Source: Lachnospiraceae bacterium (lineage in GTDB: Bacteria; Bacillota; Clostridia; Lachnospirales; Lachnospiraceae). Taken from it: a DNA stretch of 20,026 nt. This document shows, one piece after another, positions 322-9,507 of the stretch. The position numbers were made by a program, and so were the translations under genes. The stretch covers positions 1 to 20,026 of the forward strand of contig CAAFNG010000098.1 in NCBI GenBank assembly GCA_900764225.1, given 5' to 3'. The notes under the pieces were generated by a model. It made no database searches. It was not told where the DNA came from and saw only the letters and a program-made list of their open reading frames with translations. How positions within the stretch are numbered: position 1 is the first letter of the stretch; each line of letters begins with the position of its first letter.

Positions 322-1701
322 ATGTATCAGATAGACTTTCATAAACCGCTCCACATTCATTTTATCGGAATCGGCGGCATCAGCATGAGCGGCCTTGCCG
401 AGATTCTTCTCGAGGAGAATTTCAAGATCTCCGGTTCCGATGCCAAGGCCAGCCCTCTGACCCGCGCTCTGGAAGAACGCGGTGCCATGATCTACTATGG
501 TCAGCGTGCAGCTAATATCAAGGATGATGTAGATGTTGTTGTGTACACTGCAGCGATCCACCCTGACAACCCGGAATTTGCCTGCGCTAAAGAAAAAGGT
601 CTTCCAATGCTCACACGTGCAGAACTGCTTGGGCAGATCATGCGTAACTATGATACTCCGATCGCAATTTCCGGTACCCATGGCAAAACAACCACAACCT
701 CCATGGTATCCCACATCCTTCTTGAGGGTGACTGCGATCCGACGATCAGTGTCGGTGGCATCCTTCCTGCAATCCACGGCAACATCCGCGTGGGAAATTC
801 TGAGACTTTTGTCACGGAGGCCTGTGAATACACCAACAGCTTCTTAAGCTTTTTCCCAAAAATCAGTGTGATCCTGAATATGGATGCTGACCATCTGGAT
901 TTCTTCAAGGATATTGACGATATCCGTCATTCCTTCCGGAAATTTGCCGAGCTTCTTCCGGAAGACGGAACTCTGATCATCAATGCCGATACACCGGAAT
1001 ATGAGACTATCACCCGTGATCTTTCATGTCATATTCTTACCTATGGTCTTGAGCATGATGCAGATTATACAGCAACAGACATCACATGGGATAAATACGG
1101 ACACCCATCCTTTACTGTTCTTTTCCAGGGCAAAAAAATCGGCAGCTACTACCTCCGTGTACCGGGCATCCATAACGTATCCAACGCTCTGGCAGCCATC
1201 GCTGTGGGACGCCTTCTGGATCTTCCGGAGGAAGTTCTCGTCAAAGGACTGGGAAGCTTCACAGGAACAGACCGCCGTTTCCAGTACAAGGGTGAAATTG
1301 GCGGAGTTACCATTATCGATGATTACGCACATCATCCGACAGAGATCGAGGCAACTCTTCATGCAGCGAAGAATTACCCTCATCAGAAGGTATGGTGTGT
1401 ATTCCAGCCACATACTTATACCCGTACCAAGGCTCTTCTTCCGGAGTTTGCCAAAGCTCTGACCCTTGCAGACCACGTAGTGCTTGCTGATATCTATGCA
1501 GCCCGTGAAACTGACGATCTTGGCATTTCCTCCCAGGATCTCCAGAAAAAGATCCAGGAACTGGGAACACCTTGCGAATATTTCCCGACTTTCGATGAGA
1601 TCGAGAGCTTTCTGCTGAAAAGTTGTGCACATGGTGATCTGTTGATAACTATGGGCGCCGGAGACGTTGTAAATATTGGAGAACACCTCCTCGGAAAATA
1701 G
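322..1701 (+). CDS. murC: UDP-N-acetylmuramate--L-alanine ligase
   Basis: MurC adds L-alanine to UDP-MurNAc using ATP, the first peptide-forming step of peptidoglycan precursor synthesis in the cytoplasm. At 459 residues it has the family's normal length. The N-terminus carries the UDP-binding Rossmann motif GIGGIS (16-21). The Mur-ligase ATP loop is GTHGKTTTT (118-126), and the DDYAHHPTE segment (about 333-341) marks the start of the C-terminal ligase domain. AAGGAG sits six bases before the ATG, so the start is secure. It has its own promoter and a terminator directly after the stop, so it is probably monocistronic. The first DnaA box begins at the base after its stop codon. The assignment is firm from motifs and full-length similarity to the known family. 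Confidence 0.97.
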   Translation: MYQIDFHKPLHIHFIGIGGISMSGLAEILLEENFKISGSDAKASPLTRALEERGAMIYYGQRAANIKDDVDVVVYTAAIHPDNPEFACAKEKGLPMLTRAELLGQIMRNYDTPIAISGTHGKTTTTSMVSHILLEGDCDPTISVGGILPAIHGNIRVGNSETFVTEACEYTNSFLSFFPKISVILNMDADHLDFFKDIDDIRHSFRKFAELLPEDGTLIINADTPEYETITRDLSCHILTYGLEHDADYTATDITWDKYGHPSFTVLFQGKKIGSYYLRVPGIHNVSNALAAIAVGRLLDLPEEVLVKGLGSFTGTDRRFQYKGEIGGVTIIDDYAHHPTEIEATLHAAKNYPHQKVWCVFQPHTYTRTKALLPEFAKALTLADHVVLADIYAARETDDLGISSQDLQKKIQELGTPCEYFPTFDEIESFLLKSCAHGDLLITMGAGDVVNIGEHLLGK

Positions 1702-1776
1702 TTATCCACATTATCCACATGCTTATGCACATTCCATACGTGCCTGGCATGTGGATTTTTTTGTGCATAATCCACT
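1702..1776. promoter_or_regulatory. DnaA-box cluster 1
   Basis: DnaA binds the 9-mer TTATNCACA. Perfect TTATCCACA copies lie at 1702-1710 and 1711-1719, directly abutting, and TTATGCACA lies at 1723-1731. TTATGCACA on the minus strand lies at 1762-1770. Weaker two-mismatch copies are AAATCCACA (minus, 1750-1758) and TAATCCACT (plus, 1768-1776). Four consensus 9-mers within 69 bases is far beyond chance. Function in replication control is inferred from the box sequence and the helicase-loader genes downstream. Confidence 0.85.
1713..1762 (+). terminator. murC rho-independent terminator overlapping DnaA boxes
   Basis: ATCCACATGC (1713-1722) and GCATGTGGAT (1747-1756) form a perfect 10-bp stem, followed by a T-run (1756-1762). 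The 24-base loop can close further through GCAC (1727-1730) and GTGC (1740-1743). It begins 12 bases after the murC stop. The left arm is largely the second DnaA box, and the right arm overlaps a degenerate inverted box. Confidence 0.75.
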
Positions 1777-1867
1777 TGACATAAATTGACAGCATAATTC
1801 TGCAAATACCGCATTTTCCTTATAAAATCCGGTTTTTTTTCAGTTACCAATAATGTCATCCTCAAAG
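1777..1867. other. AT-rich spacer between the two DnaA-box clusters
   Basis: About 90 bases separate the two clusters. They contain TTGACA twice (1776-1781 and 1786-1791, ten bases apart), but no -10 element at a usable distance. There are T-rich tracts including an eight-T run near 1832-1840. No gene is visible. Such an AT-rich stretch could serve as an easily melted element, but nothing here proves it. Confidence 0.4.
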
Positions 1868-1894
1868 TTTTCCACATTATCCACATTTTCCACA
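1868..1894 (+). promoter_or_regulatory. DnaA-box cluster 2: three abutting 9-mers
   Basis: TTTTCCACA (1868-1876), TTATCCACA (1877-1885) and TTTTCCACA (1886-1894) follow one another with no gap and in the same orientation. The central copy is the perfect DnaA consensus and the flanking ones each differ at one position. The array ends 36 bases before the -35 of the loader operon promoter, a suitable place for a transcription regulator. Confidence 0.8.
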
Positions 1895-1930: not shown

Positions 1931-1959
1931 TTCTCATTTAAAAATGGTTGTGCTATAAT
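1931..1959 (+). promoter_or_regulatory. Promoter of the helicase-loader operon
   Basis: An extended -10, TGCTATAAT (1951-1959), is preceded by TTCTCA (1931-1936, 4/6) with a 17-base spacer. Predicted start near 1966 gives a leader of about 66 bases. A second TATAAT at 1991-1996 lacks a recognisable -35. Confidence 0.65.
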
Positions 1960-2031: not shown

Positions 2032-3144
2032 ATGAGTATGATTTCTCTTCAGAATACCTCAGAAACAGAGGTTACGATTCTTTCCAATCGTTTTATTGAC
2101 AACTTCATGCCTCGTGCCAACGGAGAATTTGTGAAGGTATATATCTACCTGCTCCGTATTGTATCTGCCGCTCCAACCTCCTTCAGTCTGGAAACTATGG
2201 CAGACCGGCTTTTCTGCACGGAGCGAGATATCTCCCGTGCCTTAAAATACTGGGAAGCTGAGAAGCTGATCTCCCTGACTTATACCAATGACCAGCAGCT
2301 TACCGGAATCACTCTTCTGGATCCATTCACAGATACCGGCCGTCTGGAGAGCAGTGCTTCCAGTGATCAGGTGTTTTCCCACGAGAGTACTTCTTCTCCG
2401 GTTTCCGTATCCAATGTGGGAGCCTCTTCCGGCACAGACACTGACCGGTCCGGAACTTCTGCCTACAGACTCACTCCAGACCGTGTAAAAGAGCTCAAAC
2501 AGAACGAGGAAGTCAGCCAGCTGCTCTATATTGCCGAGCAGTATCTTGGCAAGACACTGACTCCTACGGAAATGCAGAAGATTCTTTTTTTCTACGACGA
2601 GCTCAAAATGTCCGCAGACCTCATCGAATATCTTGTGGAATACTGTGTTTCCAGAGGGCGCAAGAGTATGCGCTATATTGAAACTGTTGCCATGGCCTGG
2701 TCCAAAGACGGCATTACAACGGTTGAGAAGGCCCGTGAAGCAAGCTCCCGTTTTTCCAAAGATTATTATTCAGTCCTGAAAGCTATGGGAATCAACGGGC
2801 GCAATCCTGTGGAGGATGAGATCACTTACATTGATACCTGGCGTAAAACCTACGGTTTTGACCTGGAGCTGATCCAGGAGGCCTGCAGCAGAACAGTTCT
2901 CACAACAGGCCAGCCAAGCTTCCAGTACGCAGATAAAATCCTCTCCGGCTGGAAAAAGAAAAACGTACATACTCTGGAAGATATCCGGCTTCTGGATGCC
3001 GAGCATAAGAAGCGCCAGCTGGAGAAATCTGTTTCCCGCAAGAAACAGCCTACACAGCCGCCTCAGAGTAATAACCGGTTTAACAATTTCCATCAGCGGG
3101 ATTACGATTTCGCAGAATATGAGAAACGTCTTTTAAATCAGTAA
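2032..3144 (+). CDS. DnaB/DnaD-type replication initiation protein
   Basis: Probable primosomal protein that helps load the replicative helicase. The first ~100 residues look like the winged-helix domain of the DnaD/DnaB family. A Ser/Thr-rich low-complexity linker (about 105-145) follows. Then come two copies of the DnaD C-terminal domain (DDBH2, PF07261): about 159-234 and 242-318. Each ends in the family signature Y-x3-I/V-x3-W (YIETVAMAW 215-223, YADKILSGW 299-307). Tandem DDBH2 domains are the layout of Bacillus subtilis DnaB rather than DnaD, which has one. The start has only a weak site (AAAGTGAG), and a second ATG lies two codons in. The helicase-loader ATPase follows 27 bases later. 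Family assignment is firm; which of DnaB or DnaD it replaces is inference. Confidence 0.9.
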   Translation: MSMISLQNTSETEVTILSNRFIDNFMPRANGEFVKVYIYLLRIVSAAPTSFSLETMADRLFCTERDISRALKYWEAEKLISLTYTNDQQLTGITLLDPFTDTGRLESSASSDQVFSHESTSSPVSVSNVGASSGTDTDRSGTSAYRLTPDRVKELKQNEEVSQLLYIAEQYLGKTLTPTEMQKILFFYDELKMSADLIEYLVEYCVSRGRKSMRYIETVAMAWSKDGITTVEKAREASSRFSKDYYSVLKAMGINGRNPVEDEITYIDTWRKTYGFDLELIQEACSRTVLTTGQPSFQYADKILSGWKKKNVHTLEDIRLLDAEHKKRQLEKSVSRKKQPTQPPQSNNRFNNFHQRDYDFAEYEKRLLNQ

Positions 3145-3171: not shown

Positions 3172-4158
3172 ATGCCTTTACAGAATTTTCAGTATGATAC
3201 TATAATGAGAGAATACAGTCGGCGTCAGGCTCAGAATCACCGGATTCTGGAGGAGCACACTGCCAATGCCTATGCGAAGATTCCCCGTCTTAAAGAGATT
3301 GATGACGAGGTAGCTACCTTAAGTGCAGATAAGGTGCGAAGGCTTTTAAGCGGCAAAGAAAAAGGAACTTCTGACCTGAAGGCAGCGATCCAGGAGCTCT
3401 CAGATGAACGACTCACGCTTCTTGTTGCCAATGGTTTTCCCGGAGATTATCTGGAAATGCCCTGCACCTGTCCTGTCTGTCAGGACACCGGATACGTGGG
3501 CAGCAAAAAATGCACCTGTTTCAAAAAAGCCGAGATTGAACTGCTCTATGCACAGTCTAATCTCAATGAAATTCTTGAAAAAGAAAATTTTGACAGCTTT
3601 TCATTTGACTATTATTCTGCTACAATAAAAAACGAAGCCACGGGACTGTCTGCTCTGGAAACAGCCAGACGGGCCTACGACACTGCACAGCGCTTTGTGC
3701 AGGACTTCGACCACAAATTCGAAAATCTGTTTTTGTATGGCGATACCGGCGTGGGAAAAACATTTCTCTCACACTGTATCGCGCGGGAGCTTCTCAGATC
3801 CACGCACTGTGTTCTGTATTTCTCAGCCTATGATCTTTTTGATATGATGGCTGCGAACTCTTTTTCCAGAAAGGATACAGGCACAGATGAGGAACTGCTC
3901 TACGACTGTGATCTTCTTATCATTGATGACCTTGGAACAGAGCTTACCAACAGCTTTGTATCCTCGCAGCTTTTTCTCTGTCTCAATGAACGGATCATGC
4001 GAAGAAAGTCCACGATCATTTCCACGAATCTGACGCTCAAGAATTTCTCGGATACTTATTCCGAGAGAACTTTTTCCCGGATCGCAAGCAACTATCAGAT
4101 GATCTCGCTGATCGGGAAAGATATCCGTATACAGAAAATATTTTTAGGAGGAAATTAA
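3172..4158 (+). CDS. DnaI/DnaC-like helicase loader ATPase
   Basis: AAA+ ATPase of the DnaC/DnaI/IstB group, expected to load the hexameric replicative helicase onto DNA. The N-terminal part has a cysteine cluster, C98-T-C100-P-V-C103 and C114-T-C116, typical of the zinc-binding N-terminal domain of DnaI. The ATPase core has Walker A GDTGVGKT (190-197), Walker B LLIIDD (248-253) and a sensor-1 STNLTL segment. Length (328) suits DnaI. No transposase is nearby, so an IstB role is unlikely. The ribosome binding site GGAAGGAG (3157-3164) is strong. It lies between the DnaB/DnaD-like gene and the PRPP synthetase in one operon. I give no symbol because dnaI and dnaC naming differs between species. 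Confidence 0.92.
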   Translation: MPLQNFQYDTIMREYSRRQAQNHRILEEHTANAYAKIPRLKEIDDEVATLSADKVRRLLSGKEKGTSDLKAAIQELSDERLTLLVANGFPGDYLEMPCTCPVCQDTGYVGSKKCTCFKKAEIELLYAQSNLNEILEKENFDSFSFDYYSATIKNEATGLSALETARRAYDTAQRFVQDFDHKFENLFLYGDTGVGKTFLSHCIARELLRSTHCVLYFSAYDLFDMMAANSFSRKDTGTDEELLYDCDLLIIDDLGTELTNSFVSSQLFLCLNERIMRRKSTIISTNLTLKNFSDTYSERTFSRIASNYQMISLIGKDIRIQKIFLGGN

Positions 4159-4159
4159 A

Positions 4160-5344
4160 ATGGCACAGGTAACTACAAAAGATTTTTCCACACTCCCGGT
4201 AGGAAGACTTGGACTGATTCCCCTTCAGAGCTGCAGCTCATTAGGAGCTAAGGTGAATGACTGGCTGGTTAAATGGCGTGCCGAAAGGCAGTATCCCGGA
4301 ATGGATTCCTTCGCTTTCGAGGGATACAAGCGTGATTCTTACATTATCGAAGCAAAGAATCCTCGTTTCGGTTCCGGTGAAGCCAAATGTACCATCAACG
4401 AATCTGTCCGTGGTGATGATATCTACATTATGGTGGATGTGACCAACTACAGTCTTTCCTATCCGATCGGACCATATACCAATCTCATGTCCCCGGATGA
4501 CCATTTCCAGGATATGAAACGTGTAATCGCTGCCATCGGTGGAAAAGCCCGCAGAGTTAACGTAATCATGCCGTATCTCTATGAGAGCCGTCAGGACAAG
4601 CGTGTCGGAAGAGAGTCTCTGGACTGTGCCACTGCACTTCATGAGCTGATCGACATGGGTGTTGAGAACATCATCACCTTCGATGCCCACGACTCCCGTG
4701 TACAGAACGCTACACCGCTTCACGGCTTCGAAACTGTACAGCCGTCCTATCAGTTCATCAAGGCACTTCTCAAGAATGAAGAGGGTCTGCATATTGATAA
4801 GGATCATTTCATGACCATCAGCCCGGATGAAGGAAGCATGAGCCGTGCCATCTATCTCGCCAACGTGCTCGGTGTTGACATGGGTATGTACTACAAACGT
4901 CTGGACTACACAACCTACGAAAATGGCCGCCATCCGGTTGCTGCATATGAGTTCCTGGGACCGAAGCTTGAAGGCAAGGATATGATCCTGATCGACGATA
5001 TGATCTCTTCCGGTGATACGATCCTGAAAATTGCTTCTCTCCTCAAGGAGAAAGGTGCCGGAAAGGTTTATATCTGCTCTACTTTCGGTTTCTTCACAGA
5101 TGGTCTTGAGAAATTCGACGAGGCTCACAAGAAGGGCTACTTCGACAAACTCCTTACTACAAACCTTGTTTACCAGGAGCCTGAACTTCTTGAGAAACCA
5201 TACTACATCAGCTGCGATATGAGCAAATATATTGCCCTGATCATCGATACTCTGAATCATGATACCTCTGTCAGCCATCTTCTCAACCCGGTAGACAGAA
5301 TCAAACGTTGTGTTACCAATTACATGAGCCAGTATGAGAAATAA
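4160..5344 (+). CDS. prs: Ribose-phosphate pyrophosphokinase (PRPP synthetase)
   Basis: Transfers pyrophosphate from ATP to ribose 5-phosphate, giving PRPP for purine, pyrimidine, NAD, His and Trp synthesis. The PRPP-binding loop is DDMISSGDT (279-287). The catalytic-loop region is PYLYESRQDKR (138-148), and FDAHDS (174-179) corresponds to the FDLH metal-binding segment. At 394 residues it is clearly longer than the ~315-residue classical enzyme; the extra length is mainly N-terminal plus insertions, and the loop motifs diverge from the common PYARQDR form. Its start lies one base after the upstream stop, with AGGAGG (4146-4151) inside the end of that gene, so it is translated from the loader operon. 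A strong terminator follows. Function is well supported; activity of this longer form is inferred from intact motifs. Confidence 0.93.
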   Translation: MAQVTTKDFSTLPVGRLGLIPLQSCSSLGAKVNDWLVKWRAERQYPGMDSFAFEGYKRDSYIIEAKNPRFGSGEAKCTINESVRGDDIYIMVDVTNYSLSYPIGPYTNLMSPDDHFQDMKRVIAAIGGKARRVNVIMPYLYESRQDKRVGRESLDCATALHELIDMGVENIITFDAHDSRVQNATPLHGFETVQPSYQFIKALLKNEEGLHIDKDHFMTISPDEGSMSRAIYLANVLGVDMGMYYKRLDYTTYENGRHPVAAYEFLGPKLEGKDMILIDDMISSGDTILKIASLLKEKGAGKVYICSTFGFFTDGLEKFDEAHKKGYFDKLLTTNLVYQEPELLEKPYYISCDMSKYIALIIDTLNHDTSVSHLLNPVDRIKRCVTNYMSQYEK

Positions 5345-5446: not shown

Positions 5447-7000
5447 TTATACCGTAAGCAATATTTTCTGATAAGGAATTCCTTCTTTATCCAGTATTTC
5501 CATCTCTCTTTTATTGCAGGTACTTATAATCACCTGTCTGTTTTCTTTATGAAGCCAGTGCAGTACGGAAGCCAATCGGTCTTCATCATACATGCCAAAC
5601 ACATCATCCAGAATCACAGGAAAAACCTCATCCCTGCAAAAAAGCTCTCCTGCGGCCATACGCAGTGCAAAATATATCTGCTCCAGTGTTCCGCGGCTCA
5701 GTCTCTCCACCGGAACTGTCCGTTCTCCGGTATTCACCAGAATATGAAGCTCCTCGTCCATAAGGACTTCTTTATATTTTCCGCCGGTGATCTCACTTAA
5801 TATCTGCGAGGTGCGATGTTTGAGTCTGTCTCCCACCTGGTCTGTGATATTCCCGGAAAGTGCTTCAATCGTATCCATGGCCATGTTCAGAGCCTGAATC
5901 TCCGTTTCCTCCGGTGTCATCACCTCTGTGTTATCCTCACACTCCTGAAGCTCAGACTTCAGATTGGAAAGAGCTGTATATTTCTCTTCATAATCCTGAT
6001 CCAGGCTGTTCCTGCTCCAGGTCAGTTCATCATGCCTGGAAAGCCAGCGATTCCTCTGACGTTCACGTTTATTCAGCTCTCTGCTCAGACGTACACGGAA
6101 AAACAATGCCGCTACCGTAACTCCTGCCGTAAGCACCCCTGTCAGAATGCTTAAGATCACCAGACCGGAAAAAGCCGCCAGACAACCCGTTCCTGCGATT
6201 CCCGCCACCAATACAACCGACAGGACCACATCAACCAGTTCTCGTCTTTTTTTTACACGGTGAATTCTCAGTTCCAGAAGATCTTCTGTACTTCGATCGC
6301 GGGTTCCCTGATTCATTCCATCCTGCTGCTGTGTTACCTTGTCTCGTTTCTCATCCAGCTCCCGGATTTCTTTCTGGATATATTCTATATTCGAAGAAAT
6401 TTTTTCTTTTTCTTTCTCCAGCTCTTTTTTTCGCCGGGACACTTCTGTAAGATATCCTTTTCTGGACATTTTCAGCATCTGCATAGCCCTTCCCATATCA
6501 ATGGAACTGTCCCCTGTCCCCTGATAACTTGCCATATAATTCTGAAGTTCCCGGACAAGATCGCGTCCTGTAACGCTTTTAAGCTGTGCAACAGAAACAG
6601 TATTATCATAGACTGCCTCACTGACATTTCCAAGAATTACATCCAGCACTCCTGCTTCTGCATCCACAAGGCTTCCGTCATCCTCGCAAAGAAGCTCACC
6701 GAATTTTTTTTCTTTATAAAAATTTCTGGTAAGGCGATATTTTTTTCCTTGCGCGGCAAACCACAAAATGCCACCGTATTCTGCCGGGTTTTCCCAGGGT
6801 TCATATTTCGTATATGTATCATTTTGTGCAGCCTTGCCTCTGAGTCTGCGGACGCCATAGAGCATGGAACGTATAAATGTGTGAGTGGTTGTCTTACCGC
6901 TTTCATTTTCTCCGTAGAGTACGTTGAGTCCCGGAGAAAGCTCTATATCTTTATCCCGTATCTTACCGAAATTTTTGATTTTCAAACGTCTGATGACCAT
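5447..7000 (-). CDS. Short SbcC/YhaN-like SMC-type ATPase with membrane hairpin
   Basis: RecF/SMC-type ATPase, probable partner of the phosphoesterase encoded just upstream. The N-terminus has the Rad50-like start IRRLKIKNFG and Walker A GENESGKT (30-37). The C-terminus has the ABC signature LSRGTLEQ (about 432-439) and Walker B FPVILDD (about 460-466). Charged coiled coils lie around 180-230 and 310-357. Between them, about 255-302, is a strongly hydrophobic stretch long enough for two membrane segments. At 517 residues it is about half the length of SbcC or YhaN, because the coiled coils are short. AGGAGG lies 11 bases before the start, and the gene begins 20 bases after the phosphoesterase stop. 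ATPase class is firm. A DNA-end-processing role at the membrane is inferred from YhaN/SbcC kinship. Confidence 0.85.
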   Translation of the reverse strand: MVIRRLKIKNFGKIRDKDIELSPGLNVLYGENESGKTTTHTFIRSMLYGVRRLRGKAAQNDTYTKYEPWENPAEYGGILWFAAQGKKYRLTRNFYKEKKFGELLCEDDGSLVDAEAGVLDVILGNVSEAVYDNTVSVAQLKSVTGRDLVRELQNYMASYQGTGDSSIDMGRAMQMLKMSRKGYLTEVSRRKKELEKEKEKISSNIEYIQKEIRELDEKRDKVTQQQDGMNQGTRDRSTEDLLELRIHRVKKRRELVDVVLSVVLVAGIAGTGCLAAFSGLVILSILTGVLTAGVTVAALFFRVRLSRELNKRERQRNRWLSRHDELTWSRNSLDQDYEEKYTALSNLKSELQECEDNTEVMTPEETEIQALNMAMDTIEALSGNITDQVGDRLKHRTSQILSEITGGKYKEVLMDEELHILVNTGERTVPVERLSRGTLEQIYFALRMAAGELFCRDEVFPVILDDVFGMYDEDRLASVLHWLHKENRQVIISTCNKREMEILDKEGIPYQKILLTV

Positions 7001-7020
7001 TTTTCAGCTATCCTCCTGTC

Positions 7021-8082
7021 TCATCGTCTGCTGCCTGTCTCCAGGAGCGCCTGAAGGCCATAATACAGCGCTTTTTTCTGCACAGTATCCAGTTCACCCT
7101 TCGAGAGAAAATATCCGATATAATCACCGATCAGCGTGCCACTGTAACGTTTATACAGCTCCGGAAGATTATAAGCAGGCCAGGATTCATCGATCACATC
7201 TGTGATATTTCCAAGATTTTTCAGCTTTTCAGGTATCAGCAGAAGATCCGGCGAACGCATACCCTGAAGGATCACACGATAAATATTTCTTCCACCTCTG
7301 CGAAATATCTGGGATTTCACAGCTTCCTCCAGCGAGATCTGTGTCGTTTCCTCATGAAGTGTCATTACCAGCTGCTGATAGGAACGGCAGGCAAACGGCA
7401 CAAATTCTGTACGGATCCTGCCGTTTACAAGCCTTCCTTCCATATAGCCATGGTCACCGGTATCATTTCTGTCTATAGGTTCCAGTGCTCCGGCAAATGC
7501 CGCCTGATCACGAATCAGAATCTGAGGTTTATGAATATGTCCAAGCGCTATGTAGTCAAAACCCGCTGCGGCAAGTGAGGCCGCGCTGAGTGGTATATGT
7601 TTCTCATCTCCGCCATGTGCCAGAAGAATGTGGATTCCCTCTTCCTGAATCGGAGATGCCTTATCATAAAGTCCTTCTTTTATTTCCCGGTCATAGTAGC
7701 TGAGACCATACACATAAACATCCAGCTTCGGATCTTTGACCCAGGTCAGTTCTCTGCTCTTAAAGAATACAACATTGGAATTCCACTCAAACGTATTGTA
7801 AAAAGAATCCCTGCTGATAAAATCATGATTTCCTGCCATGAGATACACCCGGGTATCCGGTATGGTCGAAAACAGATAATTTACTTCTTTAAGCTCTCTC
7901 ATCAGTGGCTGGCGGTGGAACAGATCTCCGGATATAAATAGCAAATCCACCGGATCTTTGCGGATACCCGCAATAACCCGGCGGAAAGTGCTCCAGATTT
8001 CTTCCTCCCGCTCTTTGCTCCATGGGCAGCCCCTGTCAGGGACAGCTCCCAGATGCACATCTGCAAGATGAATAAATCTCAT
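7021..8082 (-). CDS. SbcD/YhaO-like metallophosphoesterase (DNA exonuclease family)
   Basis: Calcineurin-like phosphoesterase of the SbcD/Mre11 group, which cuts DNA using two metal ions. All expected metal motifs are present: DVH (8-10), GDLFH (52-56), GNHD (84-87), AHGG (about 155) and GHIH (about 181-184). Its 353 residues end in a divergent C-terminal domain that would contact the ATPase partner. GGGAG precedes the ATG. It lies 33 bases after asnS with no terminator between, and 20 bases before the SbcC-like ATPase, so asnS, this gene and the ATPase probably share a transcript. The nuclease fold is firm. Whether it acts on DNA ends, as in SbcCD, is inferred from the paired ATPase. Confidence 0.88.
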   Translation of the reverse strand: MRFIHLADVHLGAVPDRGCPWSKEREEEIWSTFRRVIAGIRKDPVDLLFISGDLFHRQPLMRELKEVNYLFSTIPDTRVYLMAGNHDFISRDSFYNTFEWNSNVVFFKSRELTWVKDPKLDVYVYGLSYYDREIKEGLYDKASPIQEEGIHILLAHGGDEKHIPLSAASLAAAGFDYIALGHIHKPQILIRDQAAFAGALEPIDRNDTGDHGYMEGRLVNGRIRTEFVPFACRSYQQLVMTLHEETTQISLEEAVKSQIFRRGGRNIYRVILQGMRSPDLLLIPEKLKNLGNITDVIDESWPAYNLPELYKRYSGTLIGDYIGYFLSKGELDTVQKKALYYGLQALLETGSRR

Positions 8083-8115: not shown

Positions 8116-9507
8116 TTAAAGATCGCAGTTCTTTACAGTTCGCGGGAATGGGATCACGTCACGGATGTTGCCCATTCCTGTAAGATACATTACACATCTT
8201 TCGAAGCCAAGACCAAATCCGGAATGACGTGTAGAACCATATTTACGAAGATCCAGATAGAAATCATAATCCTCCGGCTTCAGACCAAGCTCGTCCATAC
8301 GTTCTCTCAGCTTGTCGTAGTCGTCCTCTCTCTGGCTTCCTCCGATGATTTCTCCGATTCCCGGTACCAGACAGTCCATAGCTGCAACTGTCTTGCCGTC
8401 CTCATTCAGTTTCATATAGAAGGCCTTGATCTCCTTCGGATAGTCTGTAACGAACACTGGTCTCTTGTAGATCTGCTCTGTCAGATAGCGCTCGTGCTCT
8501 GTCTGAAGATCGCAGCCCCAGAATACCTTATAATCAAATTTGTCATTGTTTTTCTCAAGAATCTCAACAGCCTCTGTGTAGGTTACATGTGCAAACTCAG
8601 AGTTAAGAACATGGTTCAGTCTGTCAAGAAGTCCCTTGTCTATGAAAGAATTAAAAAAATTCATTTCTTCCGGCGCATTCTCAAGAACGTAACGGATCAC
8701 ATATTTCAGCATAGCCTCTGCCAGCTCCATGTCATCCTGAAGATCTGCAAAAGCACACTCCGGCTCGATCATCCAGAACTCTGCCGCATGACGTGTTGTG
8801 TTGGAGTTCTCTGCACGGAAGGTCGGTCCGAATGTATAAATATTACGGAATGCCTGTGCATAAGTCTCGCCGTTCAGCTGTCCGCTTACGGTAAGGTTGG
8901 TTTCTTTACCAAAAAAATCCTGTGAATAATCTACTTTTCCGTCTTCTGTCATCGGAAGATTCTTCGGATCCAGTGTTGTTACCTGGAACATCTCTCCTGC
9001 ACCCTCACAGTCGCTTCCTGTGATCAGTGGTGTATGCACATAGACAAACCCTCTCTCCTGGAAAAATTTATGGATTGCATATGAACAGAGAGAACGTACA
9101 CGGAATACTGCCTGGAATGTGTTTGTTCTCGGTCTTAAGTGTGTCATAGTTCTTAAGTACTCAAGACTGTGGCGTTTCTTCTGAAGCGGATAATCCGGCG
9201 CTGAACTTCCCTCTACAGATACTTCCTTCGCCTGGATCTCAAATGGCTGTTTTGCCTGTGGTGTAGCTACCAGCGTTCCTTTGACAATGATGGCAGCTCC
9301 TACGTTTAACTTGGAAACCTCTGCGAAATTCTCCATGTCATCATGATACACGATCTGAAGAGTTTCAAAAAAGCTTCCATCGTGAAGAACAATAAAGCCA
9401 AAAGCTTTGGAATCACGGACACTGCGTACCCAGCCGCCTACTGTGATCTCTTTATCAAGATACTGTTCACGGTTTCTGTAAATCTCTTTAACTGTTGTCA
9501 GTTTCAT
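8116..9507 (-). CDS. asnS: Asparaginyl-tRNA synthetase
   Basis: Class IIb aminoacyl-tRNA synthetase that charges tRNA-Asn. The N-terminal OB-fold (about 1-110) contains [15 protein letters not shown]. Motif 2 is seen as [21 protein letters not shown] (around 235-255) and motif 3 as [15 protein letters not shown] near the C-terminus. Length (463) is normal. The AEFWMIEPE form and the 'GFGLGFER' ending fit AsnRS rather than AspRS, whose class members are longer. It is the first gene of an apparent operon with the two nuclease-like genes. The leader is short, about 65 bases, and shows no T-box core, but it does contain competing small stems. Assignment is firm. Confidence 0.96.

Follow-up and report, generated by a model that had tools for sequence, protein, structure and literature searches.

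A candidate DnaA-responsive control region upstream of the dnaD-dnaI-prs operon in Blautia-like Lachnospiraceae

Genes and DnaA boxes at the murC-dnaD junction

The stretch of DNA analysed here (20,026 nucleotides, hereafter the window) is Blautia-like (Lachnospiraceae), and its DnaD-like protein shares 80-82% identity with Blautia massiliensis, B. luti and a strain titled B. schinkii MSK.6.26. B. massiliensis is a member of the Lachnospiraceae, and in all counts below the term family refers to the family of its genome (G001), taken as Lachnospiraceae. Nine of the window's open reading frames were covered by a family search, while the rest of the list was judged by eye. The genes and elements that concern us are compiled in Table 1. 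The AAA+ helicase loader scored above the PRK06835 cut-off and under the DnaI-equivalog cut-off of NCBIfam and is therefore named DnaI/DnaC-like. Its DnaC/DnaI-type AAA+ match and the DnaB_2/DnaD-domain stretches of the gene before it corroborate the preliminary description of this DNA, according to which the boxes precede a DnaB/DnaD-like and DnaI-like gene pair. As also stated there, dnaA and dnaN are absent from the window, judging from an inspection of the open reading frame list by eye. Positions 5447-8082 hold two adjacent minus-strand genes, convergent to prs, which encode a short SbcC/Rad50-like ATPase and an SbcD/Mre11-like nuclease; neither product reaches the curated cut-off of its NCBIfam match.

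Table 1 Features of the murC-dnaD junction and the genes around it (window coordinates).
Feature	Position	Strand	Basis or remarks
murC (UDP-N-acetylmuramate--L-alanine ligase)	322..1701	+	TIGR01082 above cut-off; Mur ligase domains
Array 1, three DnaA boxes (1702, 1711, 1723)	1702..1731	+	starts 9 and 12 bp apart
Predicted murC intrinsic terminator	1713..1762	+	5' arm is part of box 2; 3' arm GCATGTGGAT, then T-run
Minus-strand DnaA box TTATGCACA	1762..1770	-	between arrays 1 and 2
Array 2, TTTTCCACA TTATCCACA TTTTCCACA, head to tail	1868..1894	+	9-bp steps; aligned in relatives
Putative dnaD-operon promoter	1931..1959	+	weak -35 TTCTCA, 17-bp spacer, extended -10 TGC-TATAAT
dnaD/dnaB-like helicase-loading gene	2032..3144	+	PF07261/DnaB_2, two stretches; TIGR01446; PDB DnaD 8ojj, E 2e-9
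dnaI/dnaC-like AAA+ helicase loader	3172..4158	+	NF005304/PRK06835 above cut-off; PDB DnaC 6qel, helicase loader 2w58
prs-like phosphoribosylpyrophosphate synthetase	4160..5344	+	NF005299 above cut-off; 1 bp separates dnaI from prs

The gap between murC and dnaD measures 330 bp in the window and has a GC content of 35%. It contains the boxes originally reported at this locus, all of which we could confirm in position: five exact matches to TTATNCACA, namely the three boxes of array 1, the minus-strand box and the central box of array 2 (1877, plus strand), as well as two sites with one mismatch (1868 and 1886, plus strand). The last box ends 137 bp upstream of the dnaD-like start codon. In the whole window there are eight exact boxes, whereas 100 dinucleotide shuffles averaged 0.85 and never exceeded 3. 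The gap hence shows what characterises a DnaA-box cluster in Bacillota, several consensus boxes in an intergenic position and above chance. Two minus-strand consensus boxes, 66 bp apart and possibly there by chance, lie inside asnS (8855-8863 and 8921-8929).

The murC stop codon TAG abuts the first box of array 1. Folding of positions 1680-1780 yielded a z-score of -4.05, which corresponds to a strong predicted hairpin followed by T's, and the hairpin involving box 2 is likely the murC terminator. The terminator-like site that a terminator scan itself called here has a shorter stem (1737-1753). Given this predicted terminator, the loader operon should rely on a promoter of its own, and the -10 element of the putative promoter starts 59 bp past array 2. 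Just past this promoter the dnaD 5' leader holds a hairpin (CGGACA-GATT-TGTCCG, 1974-1989), a similar form of which occurs in one relative (L011) and which is not visible in most other aligned relatives.

Conservation, promoter phasing and genomic position

To compare the region among relatives, we used 80 family loci drawn from the 82 best-ranked, after G001, of 120 family genomes. G056 (upstream sequence missing), G008 (internal stop) and 37 lower-ranked loci were left out, so that the sample leans towards relatives of the window. The order murC-dnaD-dnaI-prs, on one strand, was found in 80 of 80 family loci, and gene order was kept in all 98 loci studied. The murC-dnaD gap held at least one box in 71 of the 80 family loci, at least two in 63, at least three in 50 and at least four in 37. 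The boxes are thus conserved upstream of the loader operon, a point on which the preliminary description had made its proposal depend. Among the Blautia-like loci, window included, 17 of 18 had at least four boxes; a cluster upstream of dnaD was present in 16 of the 17 Blautia-like relatives, the exception being L015 with a 20-bp gap and no box. Box density amounted to 12.5 per kb in the murC-dnaD gap versus 0.22 per kb in the rest of the 98 loci, and dinucleotide shuffles gave a mean of 0.083 boxes per gap. Boxes were lacking in nine of the 80 family loci and in L015. Six of these ten have a gap shorter than 70 bp, and the four with longer gaps (168-294 bp) each carry at least one one-mismatch site.

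The individual elements recur as well. Across 15 aligned Blautia-like loci (window included) the columns of array 1 are nearly all invariant, and the first box begins within 16 bp of the murC stop in 69 of the 88 loci having a plus-strand box. The predicted terminator, in the form ATCCACA...TGTGGAT-T4, recurs in 43 of the 80 family loci and, among the 18 Blautia-like ones, in 13 (shuffle mean 0.0 of 80); terminator pairing accounts in part for array 1. In nine of 17 Blautia-like loci, a minus-strand box again lies 39 bp past box 3. An extended -10 element, TGnTATAAT, is present in 41 of the 80 family gaps, for which mononucleotide shuffles predict 2.7 matches, and in 15 of the 18 Blautia-like gaps; two neighbouring -35 positions of the aligned promoters are each T in 86 of 89.

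Array 2 keeps a periodic distance to this promoter. A distance from the end of array 2 to the -10 element, the latter called by motif and one-mismatch boxes being allowed in 9-bp runs, was usable in 50 of the 80 family loci and in none of the other 30. The values group near 49, 59, 69 and 79 bp. The best period was 10.4 bp (R = 0.74, n = 50 of 80), as compared to R = 0.41 at the 9 bp of the box repeat, and none of 2000 sets jittered by +/-6 bp, our null model, reached the observed R. After thinning to 22 values, based on clustering of the loader proteins at 58% identity with Blautia-like loci included (our sole handling of relatedness), phasing persisted (R = 0.72, p = 0.0005). In the same 50 loci there was no phasing between array 2 and the dnaD start (p = 0.976) or between the -10 element and the dnaD start (p = 0.717). 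Array 2 hence stands in the fixed relation to a promoter that is expected of DnaA-regulated promoters, the promoters being motif calls. The two arrays start 150-170 bp apart in 24 of the 39 family loci in which both could be measured. Looping between them by helical phase was unsupported: the 39 distances gave 11.3 as the best period and R = 0.39 at 10.5.

We further asked how specific the cluster is to this junction, using 60 of 147 other genomes of the class Clostridia. Boxes were present in all four class loci in which murC lies beside dnaD. A general association with dnaD in Clostridia was ruled out, as 54 of 56 dnaD loci unlinked to murC had no more than one box in the 900 bp upstream and the other two had at least two boxes. 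The same applies to murC, for which 0 of 25 unlinked loci had at least two boxes within 700 bp downstream; the five dnaD-linked loci among the 30 class murC loci (G001 and the same four class genomes) all had downstream boxes. Since unlinked murC and dnaD rarely have clusters, the cluster appears tied to the murC-dnaD junction and to neither gene alone, and in the class sample this junction goes with the family. L213, with six boxes, does not qualify as a clear second case: an apparent small opposite-strand DUF1858-like gene, named by eye, separates its boxes from dnaD.

Within the B. massiliensis genome, 211 exact boxes were counted, compared to 82 copies of the reversed pattern. Pairs of exact boxes within 30 bp gave seven matches in four places and none for the reversed-pattern control. 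The ranking of the locus within a whole genome, which had been called for earlier, therefore places it among four sites with close exact-box pairs; the other three lie in an intergenic region after a V-type ATPase subunit gene (named by eye), upstream of a SleB-like gene and at dnaA. Family-wide, 69 of 120 genomes contain the exact head-to-tail pair TTATCCACATTATCCACA, with 122 occurrences in total, and its reversed pattern was not matched once. Sixty-five of these pairs, from 46 genomes, are no more than 5 kb away from the loader gene, and the remaining 57 fall into 47 loci of 44 genomes. Inspection of 20 of the 47 loci assigned ten to the vicinity of hpf, three to dnaA/dnaN regions, four to Fur/rubrerythrin genes (by eye) and three to other places.

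The location relative to the chromosomal origin was assessed by GC skew and the position of dnaA. All ten 2-kb bins of the window had negative skew, as had L001 as a whole. In B. massiliensis, 20-kb samples were positive from 0 to 1.2 Mb and negative from 1.4 to 2.4 Mb, and the sign changes inside the stretch that holds dnaA (2.725 Mb). The skew switch thus lies at dnaA and not at the murC-dnaD locus, which is at 2.017 Mb, 0.71 Mb away. One sample in the middle of the left replichore (L041, G001:C4:2550001-2570000) had reversed, positive skew and is perhaps a mobile element or inversion. In the six genomes with both genes on one contig, dnaA and the loader gene are 707 (G001), 257 (G103, presuming a circular contig), 287 (G047), 516 (G086), 238 (G036) and 138 kb (G006) apart; in G105 they are on different contigs. 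Identity with oriC can therefore be dismissed. The preliminary description had arrived at the same conclusion from the orientation of the minus-strand genes, which is a weak argument; skew and dnaA position carry the conclusion instead. DnaA-trio-like runs were near chance level (13 in 80 gaps versus 8.4 in mononucleotide shuffles).

A proposed control region and its alternatives

We propose that the dnaD-dnaI-prs operon is controlled from this region in response to DnaA and that the region is not an origin; from the sequence comparisons we put the probability of this at roughly 0.7. DnaA would assemble head to tail along array 2, which would share a helical face with the weak-35/extended -10 promoter downstream, and would also load on array 1 at the murC end. 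From both arrays it would alter initiation at the dnaD-operon promoter, while transcription of murC would stop at a terminator to which a DnaA box contributes sequence. Activity of the promoter and terminator, binding of DnaA and a dependence of the operon on cell cycle or replication status are what we infer from this arrangement. Class I activators act from helically phased distances upstream of a promoter. As the boxes precede the promoter core at class I-like phased distances and the -35 element is weak, activation is favoured; the sign of control is probably positive, which in our judgement is about twice as likely as negative.

A more elaborate version would be a feed-forward loop, in which DnaA, via a promoter-phased two-array complex anchored at the murC terminator, sets the expression of the helicase loaders and PRPP synthase, so that loader supply, and possibly murC read-through, track DnaA level or nucleotide state, with a Spo0A-box-like off-switch conceivable in some species. 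We consider this version less likely than not. A family-wide DnaA array in phase with the promoter of dnaD-dnaI would imply that a common group of gut bacteria ties initiator activity to loader supply, and genomes whose arrays are degenerate, reduced to one or absent would offer natural experiments on whether loaders limit initiation.

The preliminary description had left the choice between a control point and a DnaA-titrating locus, and the data support its interpretation, favouring control of the two. A titration or reactivation locus, at which the boxes soak up or recycle DnaA as in B. subtilis DnaA-box clusters or E. coli datA/DARS and the place beside the loader operon is incidental, would fit the small number of clusters per genome, such as the four places in B. 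massiliensis, which range from 0.71 Mb away up to oriC. It is also in line with the finding that B. subtilis initiates early once six clusters are removed (PMC5295017, a review). The family's second conserved cluster, at hpf, is not promoter-near: it lies 129-318 bp from the hpf -10 element in the 19 of 30 loci with both measurable. Because the hpf cluster has less resemblance to a promoter element, some clusters may well serve in titration, perhaps this one too. However, array 2 keeps helical phase with the promoter but shows none with the start codon, and the loader-operon cluster is faithful to one operon though free to sit anywhere in family genomes. A passive sink would have little evident reason to stay in helical register with RNA polymerase; the phasing of about 10.4 bp therefore suggests a transcription complex rather than passive titration, and we regard titration as the sole role of this locus as unlikely.

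The remaining alternatives are much less probable. The AT-rich gap flanked by two arrays superficially resembles a bipartite oriC, but the negative skew of the window and L001, the switch at dnaA in B. massiliensis and the distance from dnaA in six genomes make a secondary or ancestral origin highly improbable. That array 1 is merely the stem of the murC terminator and array 2 a weak relic could be argued from box 2 serving as predicted 5' arm, with such an arm pair in more than half of the family loci. Yet complementary arms would suffice for a terminator, without two adjacent exact oriC 9-mers; array 2 does not belong to the predicted terminator and keeps phase with the promoter, and none of the 25 unlinked murC genes sampled has a cluster, all of which renders this explanation very doubtful. 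There is similarly little to commend a protein other than DnaA as reader of the repeats. Additional elements in the gaps could point to one, whereas the same 9-mer occurs at the dnaA region of the same genome, and the DnaA of that genome keeps, as seen in its open reading frame, the segment GNRDHTTVMHG, which we take to have a role in box recognition. One of these elements, TTDACATAA (D = A, G or T), was present in 29 family gaps out of 80, compared to a shuffle mean of 1.0, and in 18 of the 29 it follows the first box by 61-63 bp; the window has an element of this type at 1776-1791. The other, Spo0A-box-like TGTCGAA, was found in 15 of 80 gaps versus about 2 expected, and in the window in degenerate form only. 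They may belong to an extra regulator or represent degenerate minus-strand boxes. LexA-like and NrdR-like sites numbered 0 in the 98 gaps.

Control by DnaA as proposed here has partial counterparts in known systems, of which the cited papers were available in part. DnaA is known as a transcription factor, and in B. subtilis it regulates its own operon and a few others (PMC4447404, PMC8203912); the B. subtilis targets named in the available text do not include a helicase-loader operon under its direct control. The eight in vivo DnaA regions described for this organism do not include dnaB, dnaD or dnaI (PMC4447404, available portion), and the wiring of the loader operon would hence be lineage-specific. 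The B. subtilis clusters outside oriC (sda, ywlC, yydA, trmE, ywcI/vpr, gcp) share with ours several intergenic consensus boxes away from oriC, and some of them act as DnaA-regulated promoters (PMC4447404, same portion). As far as these sources go, the present cluster differs in its dnaD-dnaI target, the family-wide two-array layout and the box inside a predicted terminator. In Caulobacter crescentus the DnaA regulon includes the helicase gene dnaB and dnaQ, with predicted boxes upstream of dnaB (PMC8203912); there, as here, boxes precede a replication gene acting just after DnaA. The target is the helicase, however, the lineage is unrelated, and the accessible text of that paper contained no comparable head-to-tail array. 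The autoregulation of dnaA-dnaN in Bacillota and their bipartite oriC, which in clostridia is arranged around dnaA (PMC7561715), involve the same 9-mer and, according to the parts available, DnaA as transcription factor, but the gene is a different one, 138-707 kb from dnaA in six genomes. Like E. coli datA and DARS, as far as their descriptions were accessible, our locus is a box cluster outside oriC; unlike them it is promoter-phased and operon-bound. In the open-licence literature, so far as it was available, we found no report of DnaA boxes at the murC-dnaD junction or the helicase-loader operon in Lachnospiraceae.

Other box-rich places in the family

The second conserved cluster lies beside hpf, the gene of a ribosome hibernation factor (L216-L220, L229, L230, L232-L234; L266-L295). 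In eight of ten inspected loci it is located between divergent hpf and secA. Among 30 hpf loci, the best 30 of 114, 22 had at least two boxes within 700 bp upstream, a count that is biased upwards because the loci are best matches to an hpf from a cluster-bearing locus. Several of them carry two tandem pairs whose starts are separated by 97 bp; the hpf of B. massiliensis (L290) had no box within 700 bp upstream.

In L223, L224 and L226, near positions 3000-3100, boxes lie upstream of a gene of 66-69 amino acids close to apparent Fur/rubrerythrin genes. We take this small gene to be DUF1858-like, and an apparent relative adjoins the six boxes near dnaD in G162 (L213). In one family genome, G017, the origin region is unusually dense: 31 DnaA boxes, of which 29 match TTATCCACA exactly, lie in and around dnaA (L222, 466-2628).
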